From Podochytrium sp. JEL0797 (lineage: Eukaryota > Chytridiomycota > Chytridiomycetes > Chytridiales > Chytriomycetaceae), in NCBI GenBank assembly GCA_027596195.1, contig JADGJG010000024.1, positions 18,536-82,535 on the forward strand: 64,000 nt of DNA, read 5' to 3'. Of this stretch, positions 5,290 to 61,933 are shown in pieces. Numbering within the stretch: the stretch's first letter is position 1; each line of letters begins with the position of its first letter. The notes under the pieces are model-generated. The model ran no database searches. It was not told the DNA's origin and was given only the letters and a program-made list of their open reading frames with translations. The position numbers and the translations under genes are program-made.

Positions 5290-5322
5290 GAGGGTGCACC
5301 ACGTCTAGGATTTGAGAGGGTG

Positions 5323-10544: not shown

Positions 10545-10577
10545 GAGGGTGCACCACGTCTAGGATTTGAGAGGGTG

Positions 10578-10789
10578 TGTTGAGATGACAAATCCTGTTT
10601 TGCTATTTTGGGCACTTTGTGTCGGAGAATAAAGACTTACCGATTTCATCCAAGAAACATCGCCACACAATTTCAAAAGATAAGACGAGAGAATGTGTTC
10701 TAATAATAAAGAGGGATTCTAGACCAAAATCACGATTCCCATCGCATACCTCCAAGAGACTTCAGAACCCGTTATCGTAGGGTTCAACA
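10578..10789. repeat. putative copia 3' LTR
   Basis: It starts TGTTGAGATG after the polypurine tract and is proposed to end GGTTCAACA, giving short inverted termini (TGTTGA / TCAACA). It contains an AATAAAG polyadenylation-like signal at about 10629. The 3' boundary is inferred from the inverted termini only, because no 5' LTR is available for comparison. Confidence 0.5.
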
Positions 10790-18120: not shown

Positions 18121-21100
18121 ATGAACGAGCAGCGGATCAGCGGCGACAAGGGGCTTGGCGATGGTGAGAGCTATTCCCCTAGAGCTCCTAGCTAAGACTT
18201 GTCCTAGACACGCCACGCACTCTTCTGCCCTCACGCTGTGTTGCCCTTGTGCTGCGCCATGCGCTGCGCCAATCGAACGAAAGCACCGAGCTTCTCCTTG
18301 TGTGCCGAAAGTGGCTGCGTCTCGGCGCCGCGCAACTCTACCGCGCACTGCACTTTGACGCTGCCTTTGGTGCGCGGCGCCTCGCGCGCCTGACAACCAC
18401 GCTGCTCGACAAGGACGCACTGCTGCCCTATGCCCTGTTTGTGCGCAGTGTCGCTGTTGTGTCTTCTAGGGACGCTTCCCTAGTGTCTTCCATAGTGTCT
18501 CCTAGCGACGCCTCTCTAGAGGTTTCTCTCGAGTCCCCTAGCAGCCCACTCCAGTCCCCTAGTCAGACACTCGATGAATCCATCCTCATTGGCGACATCG
18601 ACACGCTTCTACAGCTCACACCGCATCTCGCCTCATTTGCCTGGACCGCAGACCCCGCCGCCACGTCCGTGGTGCTCCACTCTCTGGCCGACCACGCAAA
18701 GCGCCTCACGCGGCTGTCGCTCAGAGAGTGTCCGCTGGCTTCGGATGCCCTGGCTGTGGCCCTGTGCCATTCGTGCGTGCGTTTGACCCACGTCGATCTG
18801 TCCTTCACCCTGCTGTCGCCCAGAGCCGCCGTTTCCATTATTGCCCTGCTGCCACATTTGGTGACGCTGAACATGGAGGGCCTGGAGGCCCACGAGATCG
18901 ATTTCTGCAATGACTATCTGGACAGTTCCCCCTCCTCCCCGCGGCCCTTGCGTCTCCTGAACCTCAGAAACTGCGTTGCTCTCAGCGATTCCCACATCCG
19001 CTCCATAGTTCAAATCTGTCCGCTCCTCGACGCTATTCTGATTGACGGCTGCTCCTCCCTGTCCAACGACGCCGTCGTCGCCATTTCCCAGGCTTGTCCG
19101 AATCTGCATTCTCTGGACATGAGTTTCATCCCGGCCCTCTCGGATCTGGCCATGTATTCCATTGCTCTCTGTCTGTCCGATTCGATTCGATATCTGGCCC
19201 TGTCGGGCTGCGCGAAAGTCGGACCCGCCGGCGTCCAGATGCTGATTGACAGGGCCTACGCACTCAAAAGGACAACCGGTGCCTTGAAGCAGCTCGTTCT
19301 GCACGGATGCTTGCTCATTCTCGACAGCTATTTATGTGCCTTCGACGATTCGAGGACCGGCGAGTTGGAGTGCATGTTGGAGGAGGCCGAAATCATGAAA
19401 GCCGTGGGCGCCTCTGCTGCAACTATTTCTCCCCCTCGAACCGTTGCAATTTCCCCACCGCGGCCCCATGCACTATTCGATTCAGAAATGGACGCGTTCG
19501 CTACCCCCTCTGCGGTTCATGCGTCCTCAAGATCCTTCGCAACAAATCCCCCCAAATCCCCCGAAGACTATAACCTCGACTCGACCGAACTCTGGATGCT
19601 GGCGTCCTACAACATGCGTGCCCAAATCAACCCCACGAGTTTCGAACCCACTCTATTTACAAACACGGCCGATTCTGTTTCAAGCGGGAGCAGCACTCGC
19701 TCAAGCGTGCTTTCCATGGAAACAATTCACGAACCCCCGCCGCCTTCTCCCTCTCCCGCTGCCAAAGAGCTCAAACGCATGAGTTCGCATTCGAGTTCGA
19801 GCACAGTGACCCTTTCAAACAGCGGAACCTCGAAAGGAACGAGGCTCCCAACCCCGGGCGTTTCCGCACCCACCACCACGTCCAAACTACCTGCGACTTC
19901 GAAACTGCGTGAATCCGTGCTCGCCAAAACCCACCGCAGCACCGCTCCCAACTCTGCCCTTGCCCCAAAATCATCTTTCCTCCCGTCTCCGCGACCCTCT
20001 CGAACCTCCACCCCAACCCCTTCCACCTCTTTCAAAGCTCCCTCCAAAATCAACTTCAACGCCTCCACCAACAAACCAAACTCGATCCGAACCCCACTCG
20101 CAAAATCCGGATCCCGCATCTCCGCCATCACCCTCTCGTCCTACAGCCAGCCGCCTCCCTCCAAAGACCCCGCTTCCTCTTTCTCCACCCGCTCCGCCAC
20201 ACCCACGACCACGACTACTACCGCAAGTTCCGGATACAAACCACGCACGTTCAAGAAATTCAACAACGACACGGCCACAGAATACGTGCCCTCAAAACCT
20301 CCCCCATCCCGTTCTACCGTAACAAGCACCCCATCTCGCCTCGGAACCCCGCAACCCACCAGCACCGCCGCCCCTCGCAGCACCCCGTCTGCCTCGTTCA
20401 AGCCAGGCTCCTCGTTAGCCCGACTCGGTGGCGGACCTAGGAAACCACTGTCCTCCTCAACGTCCTCCCCGGCATTCACACCCTCACGCACCCTCCCCGT
20501 CCCCTCTTCCTCCTCCCTCGCCTCCACAACCACCACAACACCAGCCCCAAAACCACGTGGCCTCGGAAGCGCACTCAAACCCCCACCCAGCTCCACATTC
20601 ACCCAACCCCAACCCCCCACCCCTCACTCCACCACCTCCGCCCAACTCATTCAAGGAGACCTCGACGCCTCCTTCCTCGTCACAAGCCCCACCTCCCTCG
20701 ACTCCCCTACCACCCTCCAAGAACCCGACACAGACCCCGACTCCGGGTTCGACCGATGGCGACGACGAAGCATGAGTCTCGGAAACCTCTCTACAACAGG
20801 TCTCCCCGTCTCTGCAGCGGCATCATCAACCCCCACCAACAAGACCCCAGGCCGCGCGACCCCCACCGCCACCACAACTCCATCCTCAGGCCTGGACCGA
20901 TGGCGCCGCACCGTCCACACCACCGCATCACCAGCACCCCCCAGCACCGGGTTGGACAAATGGAGGAAATCAGTGTCAAGCGAAGACTTGGGTGTATCCG
21001 CCGCGAGTCCTACGGGAGGGTTGGATCGGTGGAGGAAGAGTGTTGGAGCGGGTGGGAGTGGGATTCCTGGGCCTGGTGCGAGTGGTGGGAGTACTGGTGT

Positions 21101-21149
21101 TGGAGGTGGGAATCTTGGGAGTCGGTTGAGACCGACGCGGTTGCGATGA
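18121..21149 (+). CDS. F-box / leucine-rich-repeat protein with C-terminal DRWRR motifs
   Basis: Two exons, 18121-18163 and 18208-21149 (44-nt GTGAGA...CTAG intron), giving 994 aa. The intron removes an in-frame TAG and restores an F-box that begins LPSRCVALVLRHAL and includes ELLLVCRKWLRL (about residues 20-65). LRRs of the AMN1/FBXL cysteine-containing type follow at about 130-345 (LTRLSLRECPL, LRLLNLRNCVALSD, LDAILIDGCSSLSN). F-box/LRR proteins recruit substrates to SCF ubiquitin ligases through Skp1. The remaining about 600 residues are Ser/Pro/Thr-rich and disordered. Near the C-terminus a short motif recurs four times: FDRWRR, LDRWRR, LDKWRK, LDRWRK (about 20746, 20889, 20949, 21018). 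A decayed copy of the 3' end lies at 42912-43341. Confidence 0.82.
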
Positions 21150-21427
21150 AGAAGGAGGAATGATTGGGCTGTTTTTTGTTAATTGTTTTTTTTTGTCTGT
21201 TTTGCATTTTAAGTAGTACCCATGAAGAATAGAGGTGGTTTTATTTTTACTGGGAGCGCGTGTTTCTGTTTTGAGCCACGGTGCAATCAATATCTAGATT
21301 TGGCAAAAAAAGAGGTATGTATATCTTAAATTTTGTTTTGATTTCACTGTGCGTCTTGCTGGAGAAGCAACTTCGCTGACCTTCAGTTTCGAACCTTGAT
21401 TTGAAATCGACGAAAAAACCTAGTTTA
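21150..21427. other. 3' flank of the F-box gene up to the Fanzor element
   Basis: 3' UTR-like T-rich sequence. The part up to about 21240 is shared with the fragment at 43260-43341. The stretch ends CCTAGTTTA directly before the GTAC that opens the Fanzor element. Confidence 0.5.
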
Positions 21428-21431
21428 GTAC

Positions 21432-21857
21432 TGTCCCATATTATTGAACGGAGTGCGTCGTTTTCCCATCTTTTTTTTGTATTTTCAGTATCGCACAATG
21501 GGGGTTTGGAGAAGGAAATTATGAGACAATGGATTGTGAAAATAAGTTGGACCCCATCAGATCAAGACTATCAGAGCTGTTTCTTCTCATCTCTGCGAAT
21601 CTCCGCCATACACGGGCTGGCAAGTCTGGAAGAGTCGAGACTGGCACAAGAAACCTGTGGCAAAATAAGATTGCCTCAACAGCAGGCCTAAACAGCCTCG
21701 CTGCTTAGGGTCTATTGTGCCGCCTCTTCTTTGATGGACTTGCCAACGCGTTGATTTGCGAATCTGTTAACCCTTAAAATGGGGGTTTTCATTTTCGAAG
21801 CTTCCCACGACACAGCATATCGTGTGAATTTTAAAAATATTCCTCGTCAAAGCCAAC
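21432..21857 (+). other. 5' non-coding region of Fanzor element copy 1
   Basis: About 426 bp between the element start and the first ATG, conserved in copy 2 (30965-31390). It presumably holds the promoter and 5' leader. No TATA box is convincing. Short open frames here have no support. Confidence 0.45.
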
Positions 21858-24800
21858 ATGTTCCCATTCACTGGTGGTGCCAACAAGGACAAGGGCAAGG
21901 GAAGAGCAACCGCGACTCTTCAGAATGATTACATGGACGTTGATCGTGAAAACGAGATTGTATGACTTGGCGTTTACATTCTTTTGGTGATTGTGAATTG
22001 ACTTGTTTTTGTTTTGATTCGAAACAGGAAAACGCGAATGCTTCCGCACTGGCTCTTGGGATTCATTTTTCTCGAAATCCTGATTCTCAGGAACCTGGGT
22101 TCCCGTATGGTTCCAGCTCTGGGTCCGGGTCCGTGTCGGCTTCCGCGGCATCTAATTCCGTCATCCCACCTCAAAAGAAGCGCAAAGTCGCCACAGTAAT
22201 CCTTGACCAGTTCACGAAGCCGAACCAGAAAGCAAACGTTATCAACAACGTGAGTTTACACATTCCCAAGAAACCCCCTGTTTAACTCCGTACTCGTTGA
22301 CCAGTTCAAGAAGCCAAACCCGAAAGCCAACGCGAGCAACAATGTATGCCAAGCACCTTCCACCCCCCTATTAAAATTGTACCAGTACATTGTTTCAGAA
22401 CCAAAGGAATCAACGCGATCGTATTCTTGTACTTTCGACGGCTGTGGGAAAGTGCTCACGTCTGCGAGTGGGATGAAGAGTCATATGAAGAGCCATCCAG
22501 AATTCAACGGCCCGCCTACGGTGAGAAGACTTGATTGCTGTGCTTTATCTTTTGTTGATCACATGTTTCCAGGTGACTGTCGTGGCAGCTTCAGGCGAGA
22601 CGATCAAGTTTTGTTGCTCTGCATGTGACCAATGTCTCGCGACCGCAGCCAACCGTTGGACTCACTTCCAGAAGATGCATGGTGATGATGGTGTAGAGCC
22701 CCTCTTTGTGAGTTGTTTATTTCTTTGTGGTTACAAATGTTCACCCCCCCCCCTTTCAACATTCGACACAGACATTCACGGAAGCTGCCAAGAAAGAGAC
22801 AAAGACTTTTCCTTGTCCCCATTCGACGTGCCCAGAGAAATTCACGTCTGCTAACCAACTCAAGAAGCACCGCCAAAACCGCCACAAGGAGTTTTTTGGA
22901 CCAGCCATCAAGCCACCAGCCGTCCCCAAGAAGCCTCTTTTGATCTTGGAAAGCGTCCATAACTGGATTCACGCTGCTGACAAGGATGAGTTCAAGCCGT
23001 CCGTTCGAGATTTCTACCATTTCTACTTCTCAGCGACTGCCCTCACGGATTCTCGCGCTCTTGCCGCCGAAGGAAAAGCGGCGACACTCAATGTGAGTTA
23101 TTTCATTGAGCAAGGGAGCCAATGAATACGATCAGTTTCTCATTATTGCCCACTGTTTCGCAGGTTACTGCCAAATTGAGCCACGAACAATGCGTCATGA
23201 GGATGAACGACCGTTATCGCGAAATTGTCAAAAAGCAGCCGTACCAAGCCGAGATTTATGTCATCCTCGCGCGACTTGTTGATGAATTCGGTGACTCTGT
23301 CGAGTTTGTCTTGACGTTGGTCCACGCGCTCTGCGACATCAACGGTTTTCGTGGGCCAAAGGCACAACACGGTCTCTTCTGCGACAGTGTCGCTCGTCCT
23401 TCGGCGTCGATTGTGGAGGAATCGAAGGTCCCAGTTTTTGATTTCACTCGCGACAAAATCGAAGTCATCCTCGAAACTTTGCGGGGCTTGGTGGCTGAAC
23501 GTATGCAGCGGTTTACGAACACTGGCGAAGTAGAGCCCAAGATTGAGTGTTTGGTATTGCTGGGGATGGAGCACATTCAAGAATGGTGAGGACTTGGCTT
23601 TTTTTTTGAGAAATTTTTTTTGATTTCGATTTCTCACACCTGCTTTGTTTTCAAGTCCAGGAAACCTTGTTGAAAACATCCAACGCGACTCCATCCAAAA
23701 TATCTGCAAGTCTCGTCCTCCTCTGGCCCTTGGCTCTGGCTCTGCAGCAAGCTGCTCCACTGTGCCCCAGTGCATCCTTGGTTCCGGGTCAGATTCCCAA
23801 AACCCAGTGTCCTCTGGTTCTGCCGCAAGTTGCTCTACTGCACCCCAGTGCAGCCTTGGTCCCACCTCTGCCGCCGCAGCTGACGCGTCTGGGCCCCGCC
23901 AAAAGATTTGCCAAATCAACGGTGATAAATTCATGGGTTCTTGCGTTGTCGGATTTTTCGACGCCACCAAACCAGACGAGGTCTTCACGGTCGTCACTTG
24001 GTCTGATGCTTCCATCCCCACTGCCTCCTGCATCAAGTTGGTCAACGACGTGGCCCAATGTCTCTGTGGCATGCAACCCCCTCCAGAAGATGTGACACTC
24101 GCAATCGGCGAAATCAAGCAGATGTGTGGCTTGGATTTTTCCGCCCCATTCCTCGGTCACCTCACCCCCCAGTTACGCGAAATCAACGACTGCCTCTTTT
24201 CCTACAACTTGTACACGCTGCTGTGCGCTGGTTGCAAATTGGAAGGTGTTGCTGCCATTGGGAGAGACGCGCAGGACTTCTGGGGTGTTGGAGGGCAATT
24301 CTCCGCGAAGGAGGACCAAGGGTGGTTTGGGAGGATGCAAGAGTTCCAAGTGCATGTGTCATCGTACCTCCACAACGCCACGCTGAGCTACACCCCGGAC
24401 TTGAAGGACTCGCTCGCTGGGAAGCAGGGTTTCACACCGTCGATGAAGCGAGTCGTCGCTCGAATTCTTCTCGATGAAATTGCCTCGAACCCTGTGCTGT
24501 TCAAGTTGTTCTCCGAACACGACCGTCCAAGCGCGATGCGTCGCGTGTTTTCCCACATGAAGGAGGACATTGTGGGGAATTCTGTGGGCAGTGCGAAATG
24601 GGCGCGGTGCCTCGGGCTCTTCTCGGACTTTGATGATCTTCAAATGCACCGCGCCTCGGACAAGATGGTCGTTGGTTGCATGTGGGGTGGCATGGGGTGG
24701 AACGAGCCCGTCAAATTCGACAAGAAGGAGATGCAAGATATGATCAAGAGTCGAGCTGCTGATGGGATTCGTCTTGGGTTTGGATTCGAGAAAGTTTCGG

Positions 24801-27800
24801 ACAAGAAGCCGGAGAGGAGACACCCCAAGGTGGAGGAGGAGAATGGTTCGGATGAGATTGGGTTGTTTGTTGGTGGTTCTCTGGTCCCGTACGACGAGTT
24901 TTGCAAGATCCACGCGGCAGCTCGAATGCTGGTCGAGTCTGGTGTTGTCCTACATCAAGGGCTCATCAAGGGACTCCAGCGTTTGGACAAGACCCTACAG
25001 TCGTTCCCGAACCTCAAGTTCCTGCATTGCTTGACGAGGACACTGGCTCGGATTCCCAACTGTTTTGCTGTTCCTTGTGCCATAGTTTTTCAGGGCCGGA
25101 CCCAGTCCGGCGTGAGCACCTTGAGCACCATGCTGGATTCTCTCGAGGCGAAAACCAAGTCCATCCCCCAAGAAGCGAAGCTCGAGGCTGTCAAGTTGAA
25201 GCTCGGTGTTTCCAACTTGGAGGATTGGCAAGCAGTCTTGGTTATCCACGAGGACCCCGCAACACGCGTTCGTCAACTCATCAAAAGCTACTTTGTCGTT
25301 CCACGCTCGAGAAATCAGGGCTCCATGACCACGACCCAATTTGATGCAGCATCTGTCGAGCGTATGGTGGGGGCAGGGGTGTTGTTCGAAGGAGGAGGGG
25401 TGATGATTTCTTATTTGGTCGCAGGTGTGAAGTACGTTGGAGTTGTGAAATTGGGCGAGAAGCAGATGGGGAAGCTTCGAGAGGCTGCGGACAAGTATCG
25501 GACAACTTTGGGACCTATCAGTGCGTTTGATTTGAAGTCGAAGGATCCACCAAAGCACTCCAAGGGAGCGGAGGTGTCGGTTGCGATGGATGGTGGTTGG
25601 GAAGATGTGGGAGCTGGTGGGTGGAAGACGGTCGCGCCCGACGCGGGTGCCAAGGTTCGCACAAACTGGCTCGAGTCCGAAGTATCCTTCGAATCCAGCT
25701 CCCCTGTCATTCACATCGGCAAGTCGGTGCACACGTCGTTTCACGACCTCACTGACTTGATCGGCAAGCTGGTCCACTCCGATGTCATCAAATCTCCCTA
25801 CTTTCAACCCAACTGCTCTACTACCACTTTGGCCCTCAACTGCTTTCTGTCCTTGTACAGTCCATACAAACGCATGGATACCAAGACAGTCGATGTCGCA
25901 CCAGTTCGTCGCACGAAAGCGGAGATGGAGGAGTTGTGTGTTGCCGTGAGATCGTTCAAGTCATTTCAGCGATCGGGCGCACTCCCGCAGTCACTCGCGA
26001 GTGTCAAGAATCCATCAGTGACCTTCATGGTGGATCTCAACCACGCGTCCAAGGCAGATGCTGCTCTCACGAGGGTCCACGGAACGGAGGTTGCTGCTTA
26101 CATTCGTGTTCCAGACACCATTAGCGACTTTTTCACGCTCAAAACAAACCGCGACACTCCTGACGACAACTGCAAGCAGACCACCTACCGCAGAGCCACT
26201 CTTGTTGCCGCGTCACCCAAAACGCAGCCGGAAACGTCTCCGAAAACGCCACCCGAAACCAACAAGGTCCGCTTCCACCCCAAGGACCGTCACTCTTTGT
26301 CGATCGGAAAGATTGTCTTGGGAGCGGCGCAACTCATGTTCAAAGCGCTCAAGGTGATCCAGCCTCCACACCTACGACTGCTACCTGTGAAGAAGAATGC
26401 GAAGGAGAAGGAGAAGGAAAAGGCGAAGGAGAATTCGAACAGTTTCTCTCTTCTTGGTTTGTGTAATTTTATTCGGATTCTTTTGTTGCAACACTGTCTG
26501 ATGATGAATATCTGGCTCTTTTTTGCAGCCGATGACGACGTTATGCCCACAGATCAGGCCCATTCCACCGACAGGTCAAACGAGAACCGTTGCTCTCTTC
26601 TTGGTTTGTGTGATTTTTATTCGGATTCTTTTGCTGCAACACTTTCTGATGTCACGAATTCCTTGTTCTTTTTGCAGTCGATGACAACGCCATGTCCACG
26701 GATCTGGCTGATTCCACTGACAAGCCAACCAAGAAGCTTGGAACTCCGATTCCTAAGGCGCCACATGGTTTGTCTTGTTGATTCTTTTTGATTTGGTTTC
26801 GTTGACTCAATGCTAATTCTGTTTTTTCCCAGCGCCACCTTCCGTGCCTCTCGCTGAGCCCGCTGATACCAGCGCTGAACGTTCAACGACGCTCGAGGAC
26901 ATGCATACGCATTACGTGATGCCCGGGAATCACGAGGCGAATACGGTGTTGGGGATCTCTGGGGGTCTCATTTTCACGGGTGCGTGCGTTTTTGACATGT
27001 CATTTTTTTATTTACAAACAAACGGTCTGATGCAAACTCCCTTTCCACAGTGTCAGCCAACAACTTTACGTTGCTGAATTCTGAGGCCCATGTCGACAAG
27101 AAAAAGAACAAGAAAAAGAAAGCGAACATGATGGACGTTGATGTGAACGAGGCGGAGGCTCATGTTGAGGCAATTGATGCTGTCGATGCCGCTTTGGCAA
27201 ATGCGCCCGTGATGCCTGTGAACGCGGGTTCCGAGTCGAATCCGGTGTGCACGAAGATTGTCAAACTGGAGGAAACGTATGGAGCGAGTCTCGCCATCGC
27301 CGGGTCCGTGACGGACCTCCGCGAGTTCAACGACCGGATCGTTCGGAAGGTTCTGTTGATGGGAGATGCCGCGAACGGAGAAACGATTTCCGTTAACTGC
27401 AGCACCGGTGTCGTGGAGGTCGAGCAAGTCGGTGCAGCAGCTCCAGTGGAACACGAATTCGTGCGGGTCTTAAAGGACTTTGTCGGGAAGAGGGGGGTTC
27501 TTGCGAGTTTGAAACCATTGGACAAGTTGGCGTTCGAAACTCTCGCGAGTGCCTCCGTTGACGCGAATGAGTTACTTGGGATTCTGAGGATATCTGTCAG
27601 AGACTCTCGTCTGCTTGCCTTTGTCCAGTTTGTGTACAGCTTGGAGGACATTGACCATGCCGACAGCAGCACGCTCAGCCTCGTCTCCATGATTGCCCTC
27701 TTGACCAGCACCAGCAACACTCTGATCAAGTCCATCTCCGTGTCCAACAACTCTCCATCTGTTCACGAAGCCACGATCCGCGATCTGTTGGCCTCTGGAG

Positions 27801-30800
27801 TTCCATTCCTTGTCGTGCCGTCCCACAACGGAGTTTCTGTCGTCTTCAAGTACCTATGTGGTGACATGAAACCCGTCGAGTTGGCGTGCCGTTTGATTCG
27901 GGAGGCTGTTTCCCAGATGCAAATCATTTGCGGGTTGACGGTCGCGGAAGTTGCTGCGGTGGAGAGTGTTTTACGCGCGTCAAGCGGGCCAGCATTGGAT
28001 CCCTTGAGTTTGAGAGGCTCGCAGTTGAAGGAGTTTGCGAAAGCGCTGGATTTGAAGCTGTTGGGGGGGGAATCTGCAGAGAGGATGACGACAAGGGTGT
28101 TCCGATTCTTTGACAAGGAGATGTTGAGGCTGCAGGGCGAAGGCATCAATGTCGAAACTCATCGCGAGGCTGCCGTGAAGGAGGCTGTTGATTTGTTGGT
28201 CTCCAAGACGCATGAGCCGTTGTTCCAAGCCACTTTGGACGTTACGGTGCATGTCACGGAACCCGGCGAGTTTGATCCTCTCCTCTCCTTCCACGTCAAG
28301 TACTCCAACATGTCTGAAGTCATGGCCAAAAGCACTTCCATGCTGCTCACCCGCGAGCCTTTGGATGAGATTGCAAAACTCAACTTTGTCTCCAAACCAC
28401 CCCAGTATGAGTGCCGCTACCCCACTTGCTGCAAAGACTCTGCTGGGAAGGAAAAGAAACCGCCAAGCTTTACCACCTTGTCAAACTGCAAACAACATAT
28501 CATGAGACATCGGGAAAGGGAGGAACCTGGCTCTGTGCGCCCGAATCCGGAGTATGTGAAATTGGACCCCCCAGCACCGAATACGCCGCCTGCTGTTGGA
28601 GGAGATGCGATGGACGTGGATGGAGTCGAAGTCGGGGGTGGTGCTAGTGCGGGTGGTCCAGTTGCCAAGGATGCCAAGCCTCTTCAAACGACTCTCAACG
28701 TCCTTGTGTCCAAGTCTGGGTCTGACGCCATGTTTGGAATCTTGAACACTGCCGCCTCGTTTGACGTCAAGCCTTCCGACATTCCCGACAAGGTGGCCCA
28801 GTTTGCGTCTCGCACAAACCACCATTGGAATCTCTCTGTGCTCAACCGTAGCAACAACAACAAGTCTGAAGCACCCGCCATTTCCGCTGAAGAAGTCAAG
28901 CTCAACAGGCCGTACAGGATGTCTGCTTTGGAGGCGGACAAGATTTTCGACTTTGCCAGATTTGGGGAGTGGACATTGAACCATTTGTTGTCGGCAAAGC
29001 ACGGGTTTACGAATCTTTTGGCCGACGGGGAGAACAAGAGAGAGACGGATTTGTTCTCCGCCATTCATCGCAACAACATCAAGTCGGACTTTGGGAACTT
29101 CAAGGACAAGCTGCTGAAGGCGAAAGGTATTTTGATTCTGTATTCGTTGCGTTTTATTGGACTCTCTTCTTACACTTAATCCACACGCAGACAACAAACC
29201 CGTGATCGAAAAACTCCGCAGTTTCCATCGCTCGAACTACATCAACGGTCGACGGATTTTCGGACTTCCACCGCAACAGTTCCACCTCACGCCTGTCAAC
29301 AACATTTCGGTCGAGTTCAAGGGCCACGATGGATTCCACGAGCTCAAGAGCACGAAAGCGCGCGACGTCTGCTACACTGACTCCTGGGCTGGTGGAAAGA
29401 AACTGCGGTCCAAAATCGAGGCGCAAAAAGTCCGCGTCACGCTTGCCGTTCCTTTGTCCAAACCCCGAATCACGATTGAGATGAATGTCGATGGACATCA
29501 GCAGCCAAAGAACCTCGAGACAGTGGTGGACCAGTATCTGAATCTGGTGCGAGGAGAGAATCAGGACTTTGATTTCGCCTCGGCGCAAGTCATGTTCTGC
29601 CCAGAGACCAACCAACTGCGGTTTCACGTTCCCATGAAGCCCAACGACTCGAAACGCGCTCTGCCGAATCCAGTGGAAGTGAAGCCTCTCGCTAAGCACA
29701 CGTGCAGTGGCAACTGCCTGGACTGCATCAAGATTCGGACGGACTTCAAGGAGCGGACGGTGAAGGAAGGCTCGTTCGAACCGTTCCGATTCGAGAAGCA
29801 TGGTGAGTTTGTGCATCCTGGTCTCAAGGGGTTCAATGGGATGGGGATGTTGCGGGTGAAGCTGAGCGGGAACCAGTGGAACGCCTCGGACAAGAGTGCA
29901 GTGGGTGCGGACATTGGGCACCACACGCCATACCTGATGTGCGACACGGCGCTCAACTTTTTTGAATTCGGACGTGAGGGTGCGCAGCAGTTGCCGTACT
30001 TGTTGCAGTGTCGCTCGGCGTGCCAGTCGTTGCTGGACAAGGGTATCAACACGACGGCGGCTGTGGTGGAGGCGACTCGGAAGGCTGCTGAAGCGCGGCT
30101 GAAGCGGGACAACGGCAAGGCTTTACCTGCGGAGGATCGCGCGAAGCTCGAGACGGCAGTGGTGAAGGCGGCGGAGGACTTGGCCAAGGAGCGAAAGACG
30201 GCCAAGGAGCGCATCGACAAGGACGCCGAGGACGAGCAGCGCAAGAACCAGGTCGCCTACGACGAGCTGCGCAAGGCCAAGTTCGCTCAGCACTATCGCG
30301 CGCGCGTGGGTCACAACGGGCGCGAGCCGCCCACGCACGTGCACATCGGACCCTTCGTGCCGCGCTCGTTGTCGGCCCGCATTGCCTTGTACGACAAGAA
30401 GATTGACGCGTTTGCTGCCAGGCTGAAGGACGTGGTTGTGCGCTTCACAAGTGTGTTTGACGTGGTGGCGTTTCCGGACTACAAAGTATTTTTATTTTCT
30501 GTTTTTTCTGATTAGTGGATCCGTGTAATCTACCCTGATACTTTCCATACTCACTTTCTACTACACACAGACAAACACTGCGTTCAAGCGACTCGGCTTC
30601 GCGAGTATTCGTGACGCCGTCAAGCGCGAGAAGGACAAGCGCGGAGGGCTGTTTGTTCTGATCAACGAGGCCTTCACGACGTGTCTGTGTCCCCTCTGCG
30701 GCAGCGACTCGAATCCGGGCCGAAGCCGGTATTTCATATGCACCGATCCCGCCTGTGGCTTCCGCTGCGACCGTGACTCCAAGTCCGCCCTGCTCATCCT

Positions 30801-30888
30801 CCTGATGTTGCTCCTCGTTCCAAAGACGAAAAGTTTAGCCAGTTCCCCAGTTGACGTCTTCGAAAGGCAGGGTTCCAATCGATTTTAA
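21858..30888 (+). CDS. giant Fanzor (eukaryotic TnpB-like RNA-guided nuclease) fused to C2H2 fingers, copy 1
   Basis: Exons: 21858-21959, 22028-22249, 22305-22343, 22386-22520, 22573-22707, 22772-23092, 23164-23585, 23656-26456, 26529-26603, 26678-26767, 26833-26979, 27051-29126, 29191-30485, 30571-30888. All phases agree, giving 2,725 codons. C2H2 fingers lie near residues 136-158, 181-202 and 226-248, with another C..C..H..H near 28411-28512. The middle is unrecognised. The C-terminus is Fanzor: RuvC-I GADIG (Asp 29910-29912), the alternative Glu in NEAFTT (30667-30669), a zinc ribbon CPLC...CTDPAC, and RuvC-III CDRDSKSA (Asp 30775-30777). Fanzors are RNA-guided DNA nucleases related to TnpB. 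A bipartite PKKKRKV-like basic string near 22167 suggests nuclear entry. Usual Fanzors are several times smaller. Two adjacent genes remain an alternative model, but no stop separates them. Confidence 0.8.
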
Positions 30889-30960
30889 TCGTGAGTTGAA
30901 CTTTTTTTTCGTTTCTCGAAGCCAAAAAATAATGTTCTTCCCCCCCATCTTGCACAGTCA
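30889..30960 (+). ncRNA. candidate Fanzor guide-RNA scaffold at the right end of copy 1
   Basis: Only 72 bp separate the Fanzor stop from the element end. In Fanzor and TnpB systems the guide RNA is commonly transcribed across the right end, overlapping the 3' part of the gene, with the guide taken from flanking DNA. This segment is the only non-coding DNA at that end and is identical in copy 2. No transcript evidence is available, and the upstream limit of any RNA is unknown. Confidence 0.3.
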
Positions 30961-31390
30961 GTACTGTCCCATATTATTGAACGGAGTGCGTCGTTTTCCC
31001 ATCTTTTTTTTGTATTTTCAGTATCGCACAATGGGGGTTTGGAGAAGGAAATTATGAGACAATGGATTGTGAAAATAAGTTGGACCCCATCAGATCAAGA
31101 CCATCAGAGCTGTTTCTTCTCATCTCTGCGAATCTCCGCCATACACGGGCTGGCAAGTCTGGAAGAGTCGAGACCGGCACAAGAAACCTGTGGCAAAATA
31201 AGATTGCCTCAACAGCAGGCCTAAACAGCCTCGCTGCTTAGGGTCTATTGTGCCGCCTCTTCTTTGATGGACTTGCCAACGCGTTGATTTGCGAATCTGT
31301 TAACCCTTAAAATGGGGGTTTTCATTTTCGAAGCTTCCCACGACACAGCATATCGTGTGAATTTTAAAAATATTCCTCGTCAAAGCCAAC

Positions 31391-34300
31391 ATGTTCCCAT
31401 TCACTGGTGGTGCCAACAAGGACAAGGGCAAGGGAAGAGCAACCGCGACTCTTCAGAATGATTACATGGACGTTGATCGTGAAAACGAGATTGTATGACT
31501 TGGCGTTTACATTCTTTTGGTGATTGTGAATTGACTTGTTTTTGTTTTGATTCGAAACAGGAAAACGCGAATGCTTCCGCACTGGCTCTTGGGATTCATT
31601 TTTCTCGAAATCCTGATTCTCAGGAACCTGGGTTCCCGTATGGTTCCAGCTCTGGGTCCGGGTCCGTGTCGGCTTCCGCGGCATCTAATTCCGTCATCCC
31701 ACCTCAAAAGAAGCGCAAAGTCGCCACAGTAATCCTTGACCAGTTCACGAAGCCGAACCAGAAAGCAAACGTTATCAACAACGTGAGTTTACACATTCCC
31801 AAGACCCCCCCCCCTCCATGCCCCTGTTTAACTCCGTACTCGTTGACCAGTTCAAGAAGCCAAACCCGAAAGCCAACGCGAGCAACAATGTATGCCAAGC
31901 ACCTTCCACCCCCCACTTAAAAATGTACCAGTACATTGTTTCAGAACCAAAGGAATCAACGCGATCGTATTCTTGTACTTTCGACGGCTGTGGGAAAGTG
32001 CTCACGTCTGCGAGTGGGATGAAGAGTCATATGAAGAGCCATCCAGAATTCAACGGCCCGCCTACGGTGAGAAGACTTGATTGCTGTGCTTTATCTTTTG
32101 TTGATCACATGTTTCCAGGTGACTGTCGTGGCAGCTTCAGGCGAGACGATCAAGTTTTGTTGCTCTGCATGTGACCAATGTCTCGCGACCGCAGCCAACC
32201 GTTGGACTCACTTCCAGAAGATGCATGGTGATGATGGTGTAGAGCCCCTCTTTGTGAGTTGTTTATTTCTTTGTGGTTACAAATGTTCACCCCCCCCCCT
32301 TTCAACATTCGACACAGACATTCACGGAAGCTGCCAAGAAAGAGACAAAGACTTTTCCTTGTCCCCATTCGACGTGCCCAGAGAAATTCACGTCTGCTAA
32401 CCAACTCAAGAAGCACCGCCAAAACCGCCACAAGGAGTTTTTTGGACCAGCCATCAAGCCACCAGCCGTCCCCAAGAAGCCTCTTTTGATCTTGGAAAGC
32501 GTCCATAACTGGATTCACGCTGCTGACAAGGATGAGTTCAAGCCGTCCGTTCGAGATTTCTACCATTTCTACTTCTCAGCGACTGCCCTCACGGATTCTC
32601 GCGCTCTTGCCGCCGAAGGAAAAGCGGCGACACTCAATGTGAGTTATTTCATTGAGCAAGGGAGCCAATGAATACGATCAGTTTCTCATTATTGCCCACT
32701 GTTTCGCAGGTTACTGCCAAATTGAGCCACGAACAATGCGTCATGAGGATGAACGACCGTTATCGCGAAATTGTCAAAAAGCAGCCGTACCAAGCCGAGA
32801 TTTATGTCATCCTCGCGCGACTTGTTGATGAATTCGGTGACTCTGTCGAGTTTGTCTTGACGTTGGTCCACGCGCTCTGCGACATCAACGGTTTTCGTGG
32901 GCCAAAGGCACAACACGGTCTCTTCTGCGACAGTGTCGCTCGTCCTTCGGCGTCGATTGTGGAGGAATCGAAGGTCCCAGTTTTTGATTTCACTCGCGAC
33001 AAAATCGAAGTCATCCTCGAAACTTTGCGGGGCTTGGTGGCTGAACGTATGCAGCGGTTTACGAACACTGGCGAAGTAGAGCCCAAGATTGAGTGTTTGG
33101 TATTGCTGGGGATGGAGCACATTCAAGAATGGTGAGGACTTGGCTTTTTTTTTGAGAAATTTTTTTTGATTTCGATTTCTCACACCTGCTTTGTTTTCAA
33201 GTCCAGGAAACCTTGTTGAAAACATCCAACGCGACTCCATCCAAAATATCTGCAAGTCTCGTCCTCCTCTGGCCCTTGGCTCTGGCTCTGCAGCAAGCTG
33301 CTCCACTGTGCCCCAGTGCATCCTTGGTTCCGGGTCAGATTCCCAAAACCCAGTGTCCTCTGGTTCTGCCGCAAGTTGCTCTACTGCACCCCAGTGCAGC
33401 CTTGGTCCCACCTCTGCCGCCGCAGCTGACGCGTCTGGGCCCCGCCAAAAGATTTGCCAAATCAACGGTGATAAATTCATGGGTTCTTGCGTTGTCGGAT
33501 TTTTCGACGCCACCAAACCAGACGAGGTCTTCACGGTCGTCACTTGGTCTGATGCTTCCATCCCCACTGCCTCCTGCATCAAGTTGGTCAACGACGTGGC
33601 CCAATGTCTCTGTGGCATGCAACCCCCTCCAGAAGATGTGACACTCGCAATCGGCGAAATCAAGCAGATGTGTGGCTTGGATTTTTCCGCCCCATTCCTC
33701 GGTCACCTCACCCCCCAGTTACGCGAAATCAACGACTGCCTCTTTTCCTACAACTTGTACACGCTGCTGTGCGCTGGTTGCAAATTGGAAGGTGTTGCTG
33801 CCATTGGGAGAGACGCGCAGGACTTCTGGGGTGTTGGAGGGCAATTCTCCGCGAAGGAGGACCAAGGGTGGTTTGGGAGGATGCAAGAGTTCCAAGTGCA
33901 TGTGTCATCGTACCTCCACAACGCCACGCTGAGCTACACCCCGGACTTGAAGGACTCGCTCGCTGGGAAGCAGGGTTTCACACCGTCGATGAAGCGAGTC
34001 GTCGCTCGAATTCTTCTCGATGAAATTGCCTCGAACCCTGTGCTGTTCAAGTTGTTCTCCGAACACGACCGTCCAAGCGCGATGCGTCGCGTGTTTTCCC
34101 ACATGAAGGAGGACATTGTGGGGAATTCTGTGGGCAGTGCGAAATGGGCGCGGTGCCTCGGGCTCTTCTCGGACTTTGATGATCTTCAAATGCACCGCGC
34201 CTCGGACAAGATGGTCGTTGGTTGCATGTGGGGTGGCATGGGGTGGAACGAGCCCGTCAAATTCGACAAGAAGGAGATGCAAGATATGATCAAGAGTCGA

Positions 34301-37300
34301 GCTGCTGATGGGATTCGTCTTGGGTTTGGATTCGAGAAAGTTTCGGACAAGAAGCCGGAGAGGAGACACCCCAAGGTGGAGGAGGAGAATGGTTCGGATG
34401 AGATTGGGTTGTTTGTTGGTGGTTCTCTGGTCCCGTACGACGAGTTTTGCAAGATCCACGCGGCAGCTCGAATGCTGGTCGAGTCTGGTGTTGTCCTACA
34501 TCAAGGGCTCATCAAGGGACTCCAGCGTTTGGACAAGACCCTACAGTCGTTCCCGAACCTCAAGTTCCTGCATTGCTTGACGAGGACACTGGCTCGGATT
34601 CCCAACTGTTTTGCTGTTCCTTGTGCCATAGTTTTTCAGGGCCGGACCCAGTCCGGCGTGAGCACCTTGAGCACCATGCTGGATTCTCTCGAGGCGAAAA
34701 CCAAGTCCATCCCCCAAGAAGCGAAGCTCGAGGCTGTCAAGTTGAAGCTCGGTGTTTCCAACTTGGAGGATTGGCAAGCAGTCTTGGTTATCCACGAGGA
34801 CCCCGCAACACGCGTTCGTCAACTCATCAAAAGCTACTTTGTCGTTCCACGCTCGAGAAATCAGGGCTCCATGACCACGACCCAATTTGATGCAGCATCT
34901 GTCGAGCGTATGGTGGGGGCAGGGGTGTTGTTCGAAGGAGGAGGGGTGATGATTTCTTATTTGGTCGCAGGTGTGAAGTACGTTGGAGTTGTGAAATTGG
35001 GCGAGAAGCAGATGGGGAAGCTTCGAGAGGCTGCGGACAAGTATCGGACAACTTTGGGACCTATCAGTGCGTTTGATTTGAAGTCGAAGGATCCACCAAA
35101 GCACTCCAAGGGAGCGGAGGTGTCGGTTGCGATGGATGGTGGTTGGGAAGATGTGGGAGCTGGTGGGTGGAAGACGGTCGCGCCCGACGCGGGTGCCAAG
35201 GTTCGCACAAACTGGCTCGAGTCCGAAGTATCCTTCGAATCCAGCTCCCCTGTCATTCACATCGGCAAGTCGGTGCACACGTCGTTTCACGACCTCACTG
35301 ACTTGATCGGCAAGCTGGTCCACTCCGATGTCATCAAATCTCCCTACTTTCAACCCAACTGCTCTACTACCACTTTGGCCCTCAACTGCTTTCTGTCCTT
35401 GTACAGTCCATACAAACGCATGGATACCAAGACAGTCGATGTCGCACCAGTTCGTCGCACGAAAGCGGAGATGGAGGAGTTGTGTGTTGCCGTGAGATCG
35501 TTCAAGTCATTTCAGCGATCGGGCGCACTCCCGCAGTCACTCGCGAGTGTCAAGAATCCATCAGTGACCTTCATGGTGGATCTCAACCACGCGTCCAAGG
35601 CAGATGCTGCTCTCACGAGGGTCCACGGAACGGAGGTTGCTGCTTACATTCGTGTTCCAGACACCATTAGCGACTTTTTCACGCTCAAAACAAACCGCGA
35701 CACTCCTGACGACAACTGCAAGCAGACCACCTACCGCAGAGCCACTCTTGTTGCCGCGTCACCCAAAACGCAGCCGGAAACGTCTCCGAAAACGCCACCC
35801 GAAACCAACAAGGTCCGCTTCCACCCCAAGGACCGTCACTCTTTGTCGATCGGAAAGATTGTCTTGGGAGCGGCGCAACTCATGTTCAAAGCGCTCAAGG
35901 TGATCCAGCCTCCACACCTACGACTGCTACCTGTGAAGAAGAATGCGAAGGAGAAGGAGAAGGAAAAGGCGAAGGAGAATTCGAACAGTTTCTCTCTTCT
36001 TGGTTTGTGTAATTTTATTCGGATTCTTTTGTTGCAACACTGTCTGATGATGAATATCTGGCTCTTTTTTGCAGCCGATGACGACGTTATGCCCACAGAT
36101 CAGGCCCATTCCACCGACAGGTCAAACGAGAACCGTTGCTCTCTTCTTGGTTTGTGTGATTTTTATTCGGATTCTTTTGCTGCAACACTTTCTGATGTCA
36201 CGAATTCCTTGTTCTTTTTGCAGTCGATGACAACGCCATGTCCACGGATCTGGCTGATTCCACTGACAAGCCAACCAAGAAGCTTGGAACTCCGATTCCT
36301 AAGGCGCCACATGGTTTGTCTTGTTGATTCTTTTTGATTTGGTTTCGTTGACTCAATGCTAATTCTGTTTTTTCCCAGCGCCACCTTCCGTGCCTCTCGC
36401 TGAGCCCGCTGATACCAGCGCTGAACGTTCAACGACGCTCGAGGACATGCATACGCATTACGTGATGCCCGGGAATCACGAGGCGAATACGGTGTTGGGG
36501 ATCTCTGGGGGTCTCATTTTCACGGGTGCGTGCGTTTTTGACATGTCATTTTTTTATTTACAAACAAACGGTCTGATGCAAACTCCCTTTCCACAGTGTC
36601 AGCCAACAACTTTACGTTGCTGAATTCTGAGGCCCATGTCGACAAGAAAAAGAACAAGAAAAAGAAAGCGAACATGATGGACGTTGATGTGAACGAGGCG
36701 GAGGCTCATGTTGAGGCAATTGATGCTGTCGATGCCGCTTTGGCAAATGCGCCCGTGATGCCTGTGAACGCGGGTTCCGAGTCGAATCCGGTGTGCACGA
36801 AGATTGTCAAACTGGAGGAAACGTATGGAGCGAGTCTCGCCATCGCCGGGTCCGTGACGGACCTCCGCGAGTTCAACGACCGGATCGTTCGGAAGGTTCT
36901 GTTGATGGGAGATGCCGCGAACGGAGAAACGATTTCCGTTAACTGCAGCACCGGTGTCGTGGAGGTCGAGCAAGTCGGTGCAGCAGCTCCAGTGGAACAC
37001 GAATTCGTGCGGGTCTTAAAGGACTTTGTCGGGAAGAGGGGGGTTCTTGCGAGTTTGAAACCATTGGACAAGTTGGCGTTCGAAACTCTCGCGAGTGCCT
37101 CCGTTGACGCGAATGAGTTACTTGGGATTCTGAGGATATCTGTCAGAGACTCTCGTCTGCTTGCCTTTGTCCAGTTTGTGTACAGCTTGGAGGACATTGA
37201 CCATGCCGACAGCAGCACGCTCAGCCTCGTCTCCATGATTGCCCTCTTGACCAGCACCAGCAACACTCTGATCAAGTCCATCTCCGTGTCCAACAACTCT

Positions 37301-40300
37301 CCATCTGTTCACGAAGCCACGATCCGCGATCTGTTGGCCTCTGGAGTTCCATTCCTTGTCGTGCCGTCCCACAACGGAGTTTCTGTCGTCTTCAAGTACC
37401 TATGTGGTGACATGAAACCCGTCGAGTTGGCGTGCCGTTTGATTCGGGAGGCTGTTTCCCAGATGCAAATCATTTGCGGGTTGACGGTCGCGGAAGTTGC
37501 TGCGGTGGAGAGTGTTTTACGCGCGTCAAGCGGGCCAGCATTGGATCCCTTGAGTTTGAGAGGCTCGCAGTTGAAGGAGTTTGCGAAAGCGCTGGATTTG
37601 AAGCTGTTGGGGGGGGAATCTGCAGAGAGGATGACGACAAGGGTGTTCCGATTCTTTGACAAGGAGATGTTGAGGCTGCAGGGCGAAGGCATCAATGTCG
37701 AAACTCATCGCGAGGCTGCCGTGAAGGAGGCTGTTGATTTGTTGGTCTCCAAGACGCATGAGCCGTTGTTCCAAGCCACTTTGGACGTTACGGTGCATGT
37801 CACGGAACCCGGCGAGTTTGATCCTCTCCTCTCCTTCCACGTCAAGTACTCCAACATGTCTGAAGTCATGGCCAAAAGCACTTCCATGCTGCTCACCCGC
37901 GAGCCTTTGGATGAGATTGCAAAACTCAACTTTGTCTCCAAACCACCCCAGTATGAGTGCCGCTACCCCACTTGCTGCAAAGACTCTGCTGGGAAGGAAA
38001 AGAAACCGCCAAGCTTTACCACCTTGTCAAACTGCAAACAACATATCATGAGACATCGGGAAAGGGAGGAACCTGGCTCTGTGCGCCCGAATCCGGAGTA
38101 TGTGAAATTGGACCCCCCAGCACCGAATACGCCGCCTGCTGTTGGAGGAGATGCGATGGACGTGGATGGAGTCGAAGTCGGGGGTGGTGCTAGTGCGGGT
38201 GGTCCAGTTGCCAAGGATGCCAAGCCTCTTCAAACGACTCTCAACGTCCTTGTGTCCAAGTCTGGGTCTGACGCCATGTTTGGAATCTTGAACACTGCCG
38301 CCTCGTTTGACGTCAAGCCTTCCGACATTCCCGACAAGGTGGCCCAGTTTGCGTCTCGCACAAACCACCATTGGAATCTCTCTGTGCTCAACCGTAGCAA
38401 CAACAACAAGTCTGAAGCACCCGCCATTTCCGCTGAAGAAGTCAAGCTCAACAGGCCGTACAGGATGTCTGCTTTGGAGGCGGACAAGATTTTCGACTTT
38501 GCCAGATTTGGGGAGTGGACATTGAACCATTTGTTGTCGGCAAAGCACGGGTTTACGAATCTTTTGGCCGACGGGGAGAACAAGAGAGAGACGGATTTGT
38601 TCTCCGCCATTCATCGCAACAACATCAAGTCGGACTTTGGGAACTTCAAGGACAAGCTGCTGAAGGCGAAAGGTATTTTGATTCTGTATTCGTTGCGTTT
38701 TATTGGACTCTCTTCTTACACTTAATCCACACGCAGACAACAAACCCGTGATCGAAAAACTCCGCAGTTTCCATCGCTCGAACTACATCAACGGTCGACG
38801 GATTTTCGGACTTCCACCGCAACAGTTCCACCTCACGCCTGTCAACAACATTTCGGTCGAGTTCAAGGGCCACGATGGATTCCACGAGCTCAAGAGCACG
38901 AAAGCGCGCGACGTCTGCTACACTGACTCCTGGGCTGGTGGAAAGAAACTGCGGTCCAAAATCGAGGCGCAAAAAGTCCGCGTCACGCTTGCCGTTCCTT
39001 TGTCCAAACCCCGAATCACGATTGAGATGAATGTCGATGGACATCAGCAGCCAAAGAACCTCGAGACAGTGGTGGACCAGTATCTGAATCTGGTGCGAGG
39101 AGAGAATCAGGACTTTGATTTCGCCTCGGCGCAAGTCATGTTCTGCCCAGAGACCAACCAACTGCGGTTTCACGTTCCCATGAAGCCCAACGACTCGAAA
39201 CGCGCTCTGCCGAATCCAGTGGAAGTGAAGCCTCTCGCCAAGCACACGTGCAGTGGCAACTGCCCGGACTGCATCAAGATTCGGACGGACTTCAAGGAGC
39301 GGACGGTGAAGGAAGGCTCGTTCGAACCGTTCCGATTCGAGAAGCATGGTGAGTTTGTGCATCCTGGTCTCAAGGGGTTCAATGGGATGGGGATGTTGCG
39401 GGTGAAGCTGAGCGGGAACCAGTGGAACGCCTCGGACAAGAGTGCAGTGGGTGCGGACATTGGGCACCACACGCCATACCTGATGTGCGACACGGCGCTC
39501 AACTTTTTTGAATTCGGACGTGAGGGTGCGCAGCAGTTGCCGTACTTGTTGCAGTGTCGCTCGGCGTGCCAGTCGTTGCTGGACAAGGGTATCAACACGA
39601 CGGCGGCTGTGGTGGAGGCGACTCGGAAGGCTGCTGAAGCGCGGCTGAAGCGGGACAACGGCAAGGCTTTACCTGCGGAGGATCGCGCGAAGCTCGAGAC
39701 GGCAGTGGTGAAGGCGGCGGAGGACTTGGCCAAGGAGCGAAAGACGGCCAAGGAGCGCATCGACAAGGACGCCGAGGACGAGCAGCGCAAGAACCAGGTC
39801 GCCTACGACGAGCTGCGCAAGGCCAAGTTCGCTCAGCACTATCGCGCGCGTGTGGGTCACAACGGGCGCGAGCCGCCCACGCACGTGCACATCGGACCCT
39901 TCGTGCCGCGCTCGTTGTCGGCCCGCATTGCCTTGTACGACAAGAAGATTGACGCGTTTGCTGCCAGGCTGAAGGACGTGGTTGTGCGCTTCACAAGTGT
40001 GTTTGACGTGGTGGCGTTTCCGGACTACAAAGTATTTTTATTTTCTGTTTTTTCTGATTAGTGGATCCGTGTAATCTACCCTGATACTTTCCATACTCAC
40101 TTTCTACTACACACAGACAAACACTGCGTTCAAGCGACTCGGCTTCGCGAGTATTCGTGACGCCGTCAAGCGCGAGAAGGACAAGCGCGGAGGGCTGTTT
40201 GCTCTGATCAACGAGGCCTTCACGACGTGTCTGTGTCCCCTCTGCGGCAGCGACTCGAATCCGGGCCGAAGCCGGTATTTCATATGCACCGATCCCGCCT

Positions 40301-40434
40301 GTGGCTTCCGCTGCGACCGTGACTCCAAGTCCGCCCTGCTCATCCTCCTGATGTTGCTCCTCGTTCCAAAGACGAAAAGTTTAGCCAGTTCCCCAGTTGA
40401 CGTCTTCGAAAGGCAGGGTTCCAATCGATTTTAA
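31391..40434 (+). CDS. giant Fanzor nuclease fusion, copy 2
   Basis: Same 14-exon structure as copy 1, shifted by 9,533 nt for exons 1-2 and 9,546 nt from exon 3 on: exons 31391-31492, 31561-31782, 31851-31889, then onward to the last exon at 40117-40434. All frames are open and all splice sites kept, so both copies look intact. The catalytic Asp, Glu and Asp codons are at about 39456, 40213 and 40321. The Cys cluster upstream of RuvC-I reads CSGNCPDC where copy 1 has CSGNCLDC. The last exon has FALINEAF where copy 1 has FVLINEAF. Role and caveats are as for copy 1. Which copy is ancestral cannot be told from the window. Confidence 0.8.
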
Positions 40435-40506
40435 TCGTGAGTTGAACTTTTTTTTCGTTTCTCGAAGCCAAAAAATAATGTTCTTCCCCCCCATCTTGCA
40501 CAGTCA
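40435..40506 (+). ncRNA. candidate Fanzor guide-RNA scaffold at the right end of copy 2
   Basis: Identical to the 72 bp at the right end of copy 1 but followed by host DNA (CGTACCTATTTTCCC) rather than by another element. If an RNA is transcribed across this end, its guide would match this host flank. Confidence 0.3.
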
Positions 40507-40630
40507 CGTACCTATTTTCCCTTTTTTGAATATGAAATATTTTCGAATTCTTTCGCAGAGAGTGGTTGCAGTAAAGTTTATTCCTCTTTCTTGATTAACT
40601 CCCTCCCACGATATCGCGCATCCTACAATT

Positions 40631-42911: not shown

Positions 42912-43341
42912 AAAACGAAGAGTCTCGGAAACCTCTCGACAACAGGTCTCCCAATCTCTGCAGCGGGATCATCAACCCCCACCATGACCCCTGACCGCGC
43001 GACCACTCCCACCAACAAGACCCCAGGCCGCGCGACCCCCACCGCCACCACAACTCCATCCTCAGGTCTCGACCGATGGCGCCGCACTGTTCACATCACT
43101 GCGTCACCAGCACCCCCCCACTGACGGAGGGTTAATAGATCGGTGGAGGAAAAGTGTTGGGGCGGGTTGGAGTGAGATTCCTGGGCCTGCTGCGAGTGGT
43201 GGGAGTACTGGTGTTGGAGGTGGGAATCTTGGGAGTTGGTTGAGGCCGACGCGGTTGCGGTGATGGGGGGGGGGTGGGAATTGTTTTTTTGTTTGTTTTG
43301 CATTTTACATAAGTAGTACCCATGAAGAATAGAGGTGGTTT
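42912..43341 (+). pseudogene. duplicated 3' end of the F-box/LRR gene
   Basis: It matches 20770-21240: the SLGNLSTTGLP, NKTPGRATPTATTTP and SGLDRWRRTVH stretches, the Gly-rich end, the RPTRLR-type terminus and about 90 bp of 3' UTR. A stop after ASPAPPH (about 43122) and small indels break the frame. One internal segment is expanded (an extra TPDRATTPTNKTPGRAT-like unit). With no promoter or F-box it is a dead fragment. Confidence 0.8.
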
Positions 43342-44390: not shown

Positions 44391-44516
44391 GCAAAAAATT
44401 CATAATTAATTTTTTGATCGCGAGTTTGACATGTTCGGATCACGTTCGGAATAAATTCAAACGAAATTATTTTTTAAATTCCAGAGAAACAAACAAAACA
44501 GAGACAAAATTTATCT

Positions 44517-61923: not shown

Positions 61924-61933
61924 GTCAATGCCG

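Follow-up and report, generated by a model that had tools for sequence, protein, structure and literature searches.

The guide RNA of TnpB-type nucleases comes from the right end of the element that carries them. Fanzor1 proteins mostly have 600–700 residues, PpFz1 being an exception through an insertion of about 100 residues (PMC11423790), and Fanzor1 genes occur in mariner elements with and without a transposase, such as PUl-4, PUl-1 and PGv-1 (PMC3627910). Here we describe a giant Fanzor gene in a 64,000-nucleotide stretch of the chytrid Podochytrium sp. JEL0797 (GenBank assembly GCA_027596195.1, contig JADGJG010000024.1, positions 18,536–82,535 of the forward strand), which we call the window. 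The genome amounts to 24.4 Mb in 995 contigs, designated here by C-numbers; the window is C157:18536-82535, and all other C-numbers denote contigs of the same genome. On balance we think it probable that the gene is the passenger of a DNA transposon of the Tc1/mariner–pogo kind that has no transposase of its own and is mobilised in trans by DDE_1 transposases. The carrier is most likely of a known kind, and the new feature is a conserved extension of about 2,000 residues ahead of the nuclease.

The gene model is real on the DNA and unusual. Fourteen exons on the forward strand (21858–30888) join in consistent phases into one frame of 2,718 codons with a single terminal stop and no internal one, as the original prediction had it; the length given there, 2,725 residues, differs by seven, and the splice choice at intron 3 is uncertain in the rebuilt model. 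All 13 introns run from GT to AG and measure 52–85 nt. The GC fraction is 0.543 in exons versus 0.38 in introns, 12 of the 13 falling below both of their 60-nt flanks. Introns 3 and 8 are stop-free multiples of three and could be retained. A single transcript is predicted to cover the whole gene.

By its sequence, the C terminus is a TnpB/Fanzor nuclease. The last exon matches the zinc-ribbon TNB domain PF07282 at 37.7 bits (cut-off 26.3), as do relatives on C277 (40.8 bits) and C335 (40.5 bits); the NCBIfam model guided_TnpB gives 27.6 bits, under its curated cut-off of 100. The catalytic residues D2422 (GADIG), E2646 (NEAFTT) and D2682 (RDSKSA) are placed as in Fanzors and are accompanied by a CPLC...CTDPAC zinc ribbon, each motif lying where it had been claimed to be. 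The Fanzor/TnpB nuclease pattern D-X(125,275)-[TS][TS]-XX-C4-X(5,50)-RD, as given in PMC3627910, can be followed through D2422, 226 residues, T2649-T2650, CL, C2653/C2656/C2670/C2675, 5 residues and R2681-D2682. According to PMC10711439, Fanzors are marked by relocation of the catalytic glutamate to six residues ahead of the zinc finger, and a DPG RuvC-I motif is near exclusive to them. In the window protein E2646 is followed by AFTTCL and then CPLC. Its RuvC-I motif reads DIG, against DPG in C277 and DLG in C335, and we therefore speak of a Fanzor-type lineage and not of a standard Fanzor. A profile of the window, C277 and C335 sequences matched 15 Protein Data Bank (PDB) chains, none of them named Fanzor. 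The best solved match was 9b0l, the TnpB-like protein L79, presumably from a mimivirus (E 7e-8, zinc-ribbon part only, profile positions 433–510). Together, the PF07282 score, the relocated glutamate and the profile match to L79 uphold the predicted Fanzor/TnpB identity of the C terminus. By analogy with Fanzor1, the module probably starts near residue 2033, about 390 residues ahead of the RuvC aspartate.

Other Fanzor-like sequences occur in the same genome. C106:20829-21026 (L024), with a 579-residue frame, represents an ordinary-size Fanzor/TnpB that shows DPG and, by eye, the relocated glutamate, and could serve as an internal comparison. Another Fanzor-like family on C322 and C459 (L031 and L032, with shorter pieces L028, L029 and L030) has some 231–239 partly acidic residues seemingly inserted inside the zinc ribbon.

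As the original prediction stated, the nuclease forms the end of a protein with a very long extension that bears C2H2 fingers, and the unit shows no second gene. Of the three or more fingers claimed, two stretches are recognized by the zf-C2H2 profile PF00096 (29.1 bits on residues 1–451, above its cut-off); the third, in the middle, and a fourth at residues 1942–1976 were seen by eye alone. The C277 relative, cut off by the start of its contig, aligns with residues 1858–2181 (29% identity) and 2186–2694 (34%); what appears to be an intron separates the two stretches, in the position that an intron has in the window gene. This relative also has a finger-like match of 21.3 bits, under the cut-off of 25.2, at the place of the fourth finger. 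On C335, open frames at 46.0–53.4 kb follow the order of the window protein. We compared hand-trimmed pieces of these frames with the window protein by local alignment against 300 shuffles under BLOSUM62, BLOSUM45 and PAM250, with block limits set after a first all-pairs test had been seen. Residues 2377–2718 gave z values of 30.8, 26.2 and 21.2 and residues 1860–2376 gave 12.0, 11.2 and 10.2 (0 of 300 shuffles as good in each case), residues 560–960 gave 5.1, 4.3 and 2.6 (0, 2 and 4 of 300), and residues 1500–1900, significant with two of the three matrices, gave 2.0, 4.3 and 6.5 (13, 0 and 0 of 300). No N-terminal fingers were seen in the C335 frames. Decayed relics lie on C660 (residues 624–800, 34%), C318 (1498–1614, 66%) and C136 (parts of 2276–2508); mismatches in the C318 relic fall on the three codon positions 10, 7 and 11 times over 281 aligned bases, with no clear third-position excess. 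A low-complexity Cys-Ser/Asn-Pro repeat was also noticed by eye at roughly corresponding places, around residues 486–520 of the window protein (CSTVPQC) and in C335 frame 46442-47566 (PCNANAPCNAS).

Because parts of it are shared with C277 (1858–2181) and C335 (560–960, 1860–2376 and probably 1500–1900), the architecture is an old one. Searches outside the genome returned no homologue of the full-length protein at E ≤ 0.001, of exon 8 at E ≤ 10 or of alignment A1 at E ≤ 1 (each among the 7,999–8,000 candidates sharing most words), and scans of viral contigs found no relative. No giant or zinc-finger Fanzor appeared in the titles and abstract openings of the papers listed in literature searches. 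The architecture had been proposed as new; the extension is new as far as these sources show, and old within its lineage, and the self-transposing fusion that formed part of the proposal is not supported by the sequence searches (see below). The extension most likely tethers the protein to chromatin or to the ends of transposons, or assembles a larger complex, and would not be the transposase. More tentatively, these proteins may be giant RNA-guided nucleases of an ancient class of their own, in which a Fanzor core is joined to a 2,000-residue scaffold that adds C2H2 DNA recognition or handling of transposon ends, DNA being chosen by both protein and RNA and a pogo-type transposase doing the cutting and pasting; we regard this as possible and no better than that.

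The attribution to a carrier rests on the element ends. The gene stands in two tandem copies (Table 1), and the left end lies outside the duplicated unit, a pogo-type end being found 15 bp beyond it. All or part of the flank 21342–21411 recurs at six other places in the genome over 30–70 bases at 88–100% identity, and in four of the six a transposase start (MARTLPSLT) lies within 120 bases of the segment; of the remaining two, one could be followed for 28 bases only and the other diverges. On C335, frame 43598-45262 encodes a transposase with PF03184 (DDE_1, E 4e-25), and the ATG of that contig's giant Fanzor, at 45756, lies just downstream on the same strand. The window and C335 left ends are closely similar (z 14, 0 of 2,000 shuffles), GAAG occupies positions 18–21 in 11 of 11 ends listed, and the left end is preceded by TA on C335 and at four of the six other copies. 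A matrix was built from seven left ends, among them those of the window and C335; with it, the right end ranked first of 277 positions in the window, first of 277 in C277 and first of 237 in C762, right-end positions having been fixed by inspection to about 3 bp beforehand. No DDE_1 transposase on C157 was among the 37 matches listed, and the window element is therefore at most a non-autonomous relative of Tc1/mariner–pogo transposons. Mobilisation in trans is the preferred reading because there is precedent for Fanzor1 elements that have mariner ends but lack a transposase.

Neither a complete pogo copy with a right end (the C349 and C141 stretches lack a matching end) nor long terminal inverted repeats of the unit (no exact inverted match of at least 9 nt between 21427–22000 and 30501–30965) were seen. 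Elsewhere in the genome, the minus strand of C322:3-998 holds part of a DDE_1 transposase with 99% identity to that of C335, a sign of recent movement of the pogo-like family. A 32-nt inverted-repeat pair, 97% complementary and 837 nt apart, lies in a separate 0.9-kb stretch, some 100 bp downstream from the Fanzor of C335 (C335:53468-54368; L026 4469-4500 and 5338-5369), perhaps a small non-autonomous element.

The right end of the element is conserved. The 71-nt tail after the stop shares 52 identities with the 72 nt of C277 (z 6.0, 0 of 1,000 shuffles), as against z 0.8 for intron 12. In right-end pieces found on C214 and C762, the block 30,823–30,910 is preserved in 83 of 99 columns (12 gaps, mostly one insert) and 82 of 88, respectively, and the coding stretch just ahead of it in 39 and 38 of 59.

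We propose a Tc1/mariner–pogo-like transposon whose own transposase was lost or was never there, with the giant Fanzor as its single gene. By what is known of the family, residues ~2033–2718 would form a TnpB-type nuclease loaded with RNA copied from the element's right end; once loaded, it would cut DNA matching the flank and so help to keep or regain copies. Guidance of the giant Fanzor by RNA is thus proposed by analogy. DDE_1 transposases of pogo-like elements with shared ends would carry out excision and insertion in trans, as the ends suggest.

Several observations weigh against this account. The window left and right ends resemble each other no better than shuffles (530 of 2,000) and share nothing beyond CTGTGC; the C335 left and right ends (23 of 2,000 shuffles reach the score) and the window and C335 right ends (95 of 2,000) are weakly alike. 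The proposed C335 right end ranks fourth of 277 with the left-end matrix; given this rank and the weak end comparisons, the link between transposase and Fanzor in C335 is one of adjacency only, and no pair of inverted repeats enclosing both was found there. The three first ranks are not independent, since the window and C762 are close kin and the right-end positions were chosen by inspection. Scanning both strands of the whole window with the matrix gave seven sites of at least 10.9 bits, three of them being the left end and the two right ends; the remaining four all outscore the right ends. TCA, and not the TA expected for pogo, stands at both window edges, and the 5' part of the gene is present only twice, in tandem, which gives no sign of recent mobility. 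Right-end RNA folding shows no excess stability (z 0.48 and 0.89 for the window, -0.30 to -0.54 for relatives; consensus fold -8.09 kcal/mol with a covariation term of -0.19, and changes on both sides in 3 of 24 pairs), and the conserved right end may for that reason simply be transposon-end sequence. Within the extension, C335 matches to residues 240–455 (z 1.6, 3.1 and 1.4; 26, 2 and 30 of 300 shuffles) and 960–1400 (z 2.0, 1.1 and 2.1; 14, 41 and 14 of 300) are unconvincing. In the first test of all region-by-frame pairs, three exceeded z 4: 1860–2186 (6.8), 2186–2718 (34.9) and an off-diagonal pairing of 930–1400 with frame D (4.3), and z values near 4 are therefore not strong; 460–930 with frame B did not exceed 4.

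Table 1. Features of the giant Fanzor locus (window coordinates)
Feature	Position	Strand	Remarks
Giant Fanzor gene copy 1, exons 1-7	21858-21959, 22028-22249, 22305-22343, 22407-22520, 22573-22707, 22772-23092, 23164-23585	+	
Giant Fanzor gene copy 1, exons 8-14	23656-26456, 26529-26603, 26678-26767, 26833-26979, 27051-29126, 29191-30485, 30571-30888	+	2,718 aa
PPQKKRKV, residues 81-88, resembling a nuclear localization signal	22166-22189	+	by eye
Three C2H2-like fingers, residues 127-151, 172-195, 217-242	22422-22885	+	exons 4-6
Exon 8, residues 452-1385	23656-26456	+	without a recognised family; shares 560-960 with C335 and part of 600-820 with relic C660
Tandem-duplicated exon-intron module	26437-26735	+	82%; self-comparison; at the model's least certain junction
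Exon 12, residues 1490-2181	27051-29126	+	fourth C2H2-like finger 1942-1976 by eye; 1858-2181 conserved in C277
Probable Fanzor module, ~residues 2033-2718	28679-30888	+	start placed from spacing to RuvC aspartate and usual Fanzor1 size
Conserved right end, end of coding sequence and 3' non-coding tail	30823-30960	+	possible guide-RNA region
TCA, left, candidate target-site duplication	21344-21346	.	pairs with 40504-40506
Left-end segment of pogo/Tigger-like family	21342-21411	+	no transposase following
Putative left terminal inverted repeat, CTGTG...GAAG	21347-21370	+	GAAG at positions 18-21; matrix score 36.5, itself one of seven matrix sources
Putative right terminal inverted repeat, unit 1	30934-30957	-	matrix
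Putative right terminal inverted repeat, composite element	40480-40503	-	best of 277 positions, left-end matrix
TCA, right flank	40504-40506	.	
Tandem unit 1	21427-30960	+	9,533 bp between two start codons
Tandem unit 2	30960-40511	+	gene exons map to 31391-40434, 2,718 aa

Self-comparison of 21427–30964 with 30960–40511 gives 99.74% identity over about 9.55 kb. The gene in unit 2 is also open over 2,718 codons and differs in two amino acids, L2358P and V2642A. The unit starts immediately inside the left end and stops immediately past the TCA of the right end, and the second copy appears to have arisen by tandem duplication. An origin from a circular intermediate, in the style of Cryptons or IS607, was considered and dropped: the left end lies outside the unit, and the junction resembles that of a tandem duplication, with one-base or GTAC-like microhomology. 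The pair itself, as distinct from the gene, might instead be an assembly product in which two haplotypes or a repeat loop were joined, a case that would be compatible with a transposon mobilised in trans. We consider it doubtful but worth keeping in view, because the same window has two other near-perfect tandems; standing against it are the 11 substitutions, the 13-base indel and the one-base gap at the outer edge by which the copies differ, and a junction that is a clean right end. Of these other tandems, the one at 119–10630 consists of two 5.26-kb copies, 99.1% identical, of an element with strong strand skew that, by eye, resembles a copia-type retroelement. The other, at 59977–64000, is a perfect 2,012-bp repeat that ends exactly at the contig end, carries a frame that by eye resembles a piece of a KDZ/CxC transposase, and is probably an assembly edge effect. 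Outside the transposon, the end and 3' region of an F-box/LRR-like gene (by eye) are repeated at 85–93% beyond the element pair, at 20774–21241 and 42920–43341.

The model could also join two adjoining genes by mistake, a zinc-finger protein (exons 1–8, perhaps to 10) and a shorter Fanzor (exon 11 or 12 to 14), across the repeats at 26.4–27.0 kb. The exon 8 frame continues unspliced to a stop at 26791, intron 8 has the length and open frame that would allow this, a tandem-duplicated module lies in the join region, and C277 backs the join only from residue 1858 on. Blocks of C335, however, resemble both halves in the same order and on the same strand, and its frame 47452-49431 should cross the doubtful join, though 14 to 41 of 300 shuffles do as well as the match of that frame to 960–1400, which therefore lacks significance. 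Both tandem copies keep all junctions in phase, which, the copies being near-identical, counts once. We judge two genes unlikely.

A host-domesticated Fanzor gene, locally duplicated and lying beside a pogo end by chance, seems to us less likely again. It would account for a 5' part found in two tandem copies only, and for between-copy substitutions that avoid exons (4 in 8,157 exonic positions versus 7 in 1,376 others, p 0.0002, or 0.005 with neighbouring changes merged). It sits poorly with the coding or right-end relics on C318, C136, C660, C214 and C762, and with right ends that are conserved and similar to transposon left ends.

The original prediction had suggested that the extension supplies the transposition activity. 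Pfam detected no DDE, tyrosine-recombinase or HUH family in the window exons, the C277 frames or the C335 frames scanned (one in part), no family at E ≤ 1 in spliced residues 453–1900 and no transposase in two of the three block alignments; all that these scans of window, C277, C335 and block alignments returned was the TNB domain, C2H2 and noise below threshold. Scans of C277 and of the large exons of the window with NCBIfam and PHROGs found no transposase, nor did single-sequence PDB searches with exons 8, 12 and 13; for the three block profiles the PDB matches numbered 0, 4 and 2, each at E > 1. A diverged or new transposase or recombinase in the extension, so that one protein moves the element and guards it by RNA-guided cutting, would suit a unit with no other apparent gene, DNA-binding fingers and parts of the extension conserved in relatives, but is the least probable of these readings, as no such family emerges at the sequence level, C335 keeps parts of the extension despite a separate DDE_1 transposase beside its Fanzor, and the element ends resemble the pogo/Tigger-like DDE_1 family; a self-transposing fusion is thus unlikely.

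Fanzors are studied as compact genome editors, and this lineage is about four times longer. If its extension has been kept across deeply diverged relatives, a TnpB core would have become, in a eukaryote, the centre of an RNA-guided enzyme of several domains; with ends that point to a transposase family of the same genome, one can measure whether mobilisation occurs in cis or in trans and how the nuclease affects copy number. With Fanzor1 proteins (SpuFz1, GtFz1 and PpFz1) the window protein shares a TnpB-type RuvC and zinc ribbon, the relocated glutamate and, probably, the place of a passenger in a eukaryotic DNA transposon, whereas its 2,718 residues, some 2,000 of them additional and including C2H2 fingers, contrast with the 600–700 usual for Fanzor1 (PMC11423790). 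It shares the zinc-ribbon region with L79, which has 520 residues and no extension. Its left-end segment is 88–100% identical to copies of pogo/Tigger-like DDE_1 transposons in the genome, whereas the window element has no transposase. Like the mariner elements PUl-4, PUl-1 and PGv-1, which hold a Fanzor with or without a transposase, the window element probably has Tc1/mariner-type ends around its Fanzor; unlike them, it has pogo/DDE_1-type relatives, TCA and not TA at its edges, and a giant protein.

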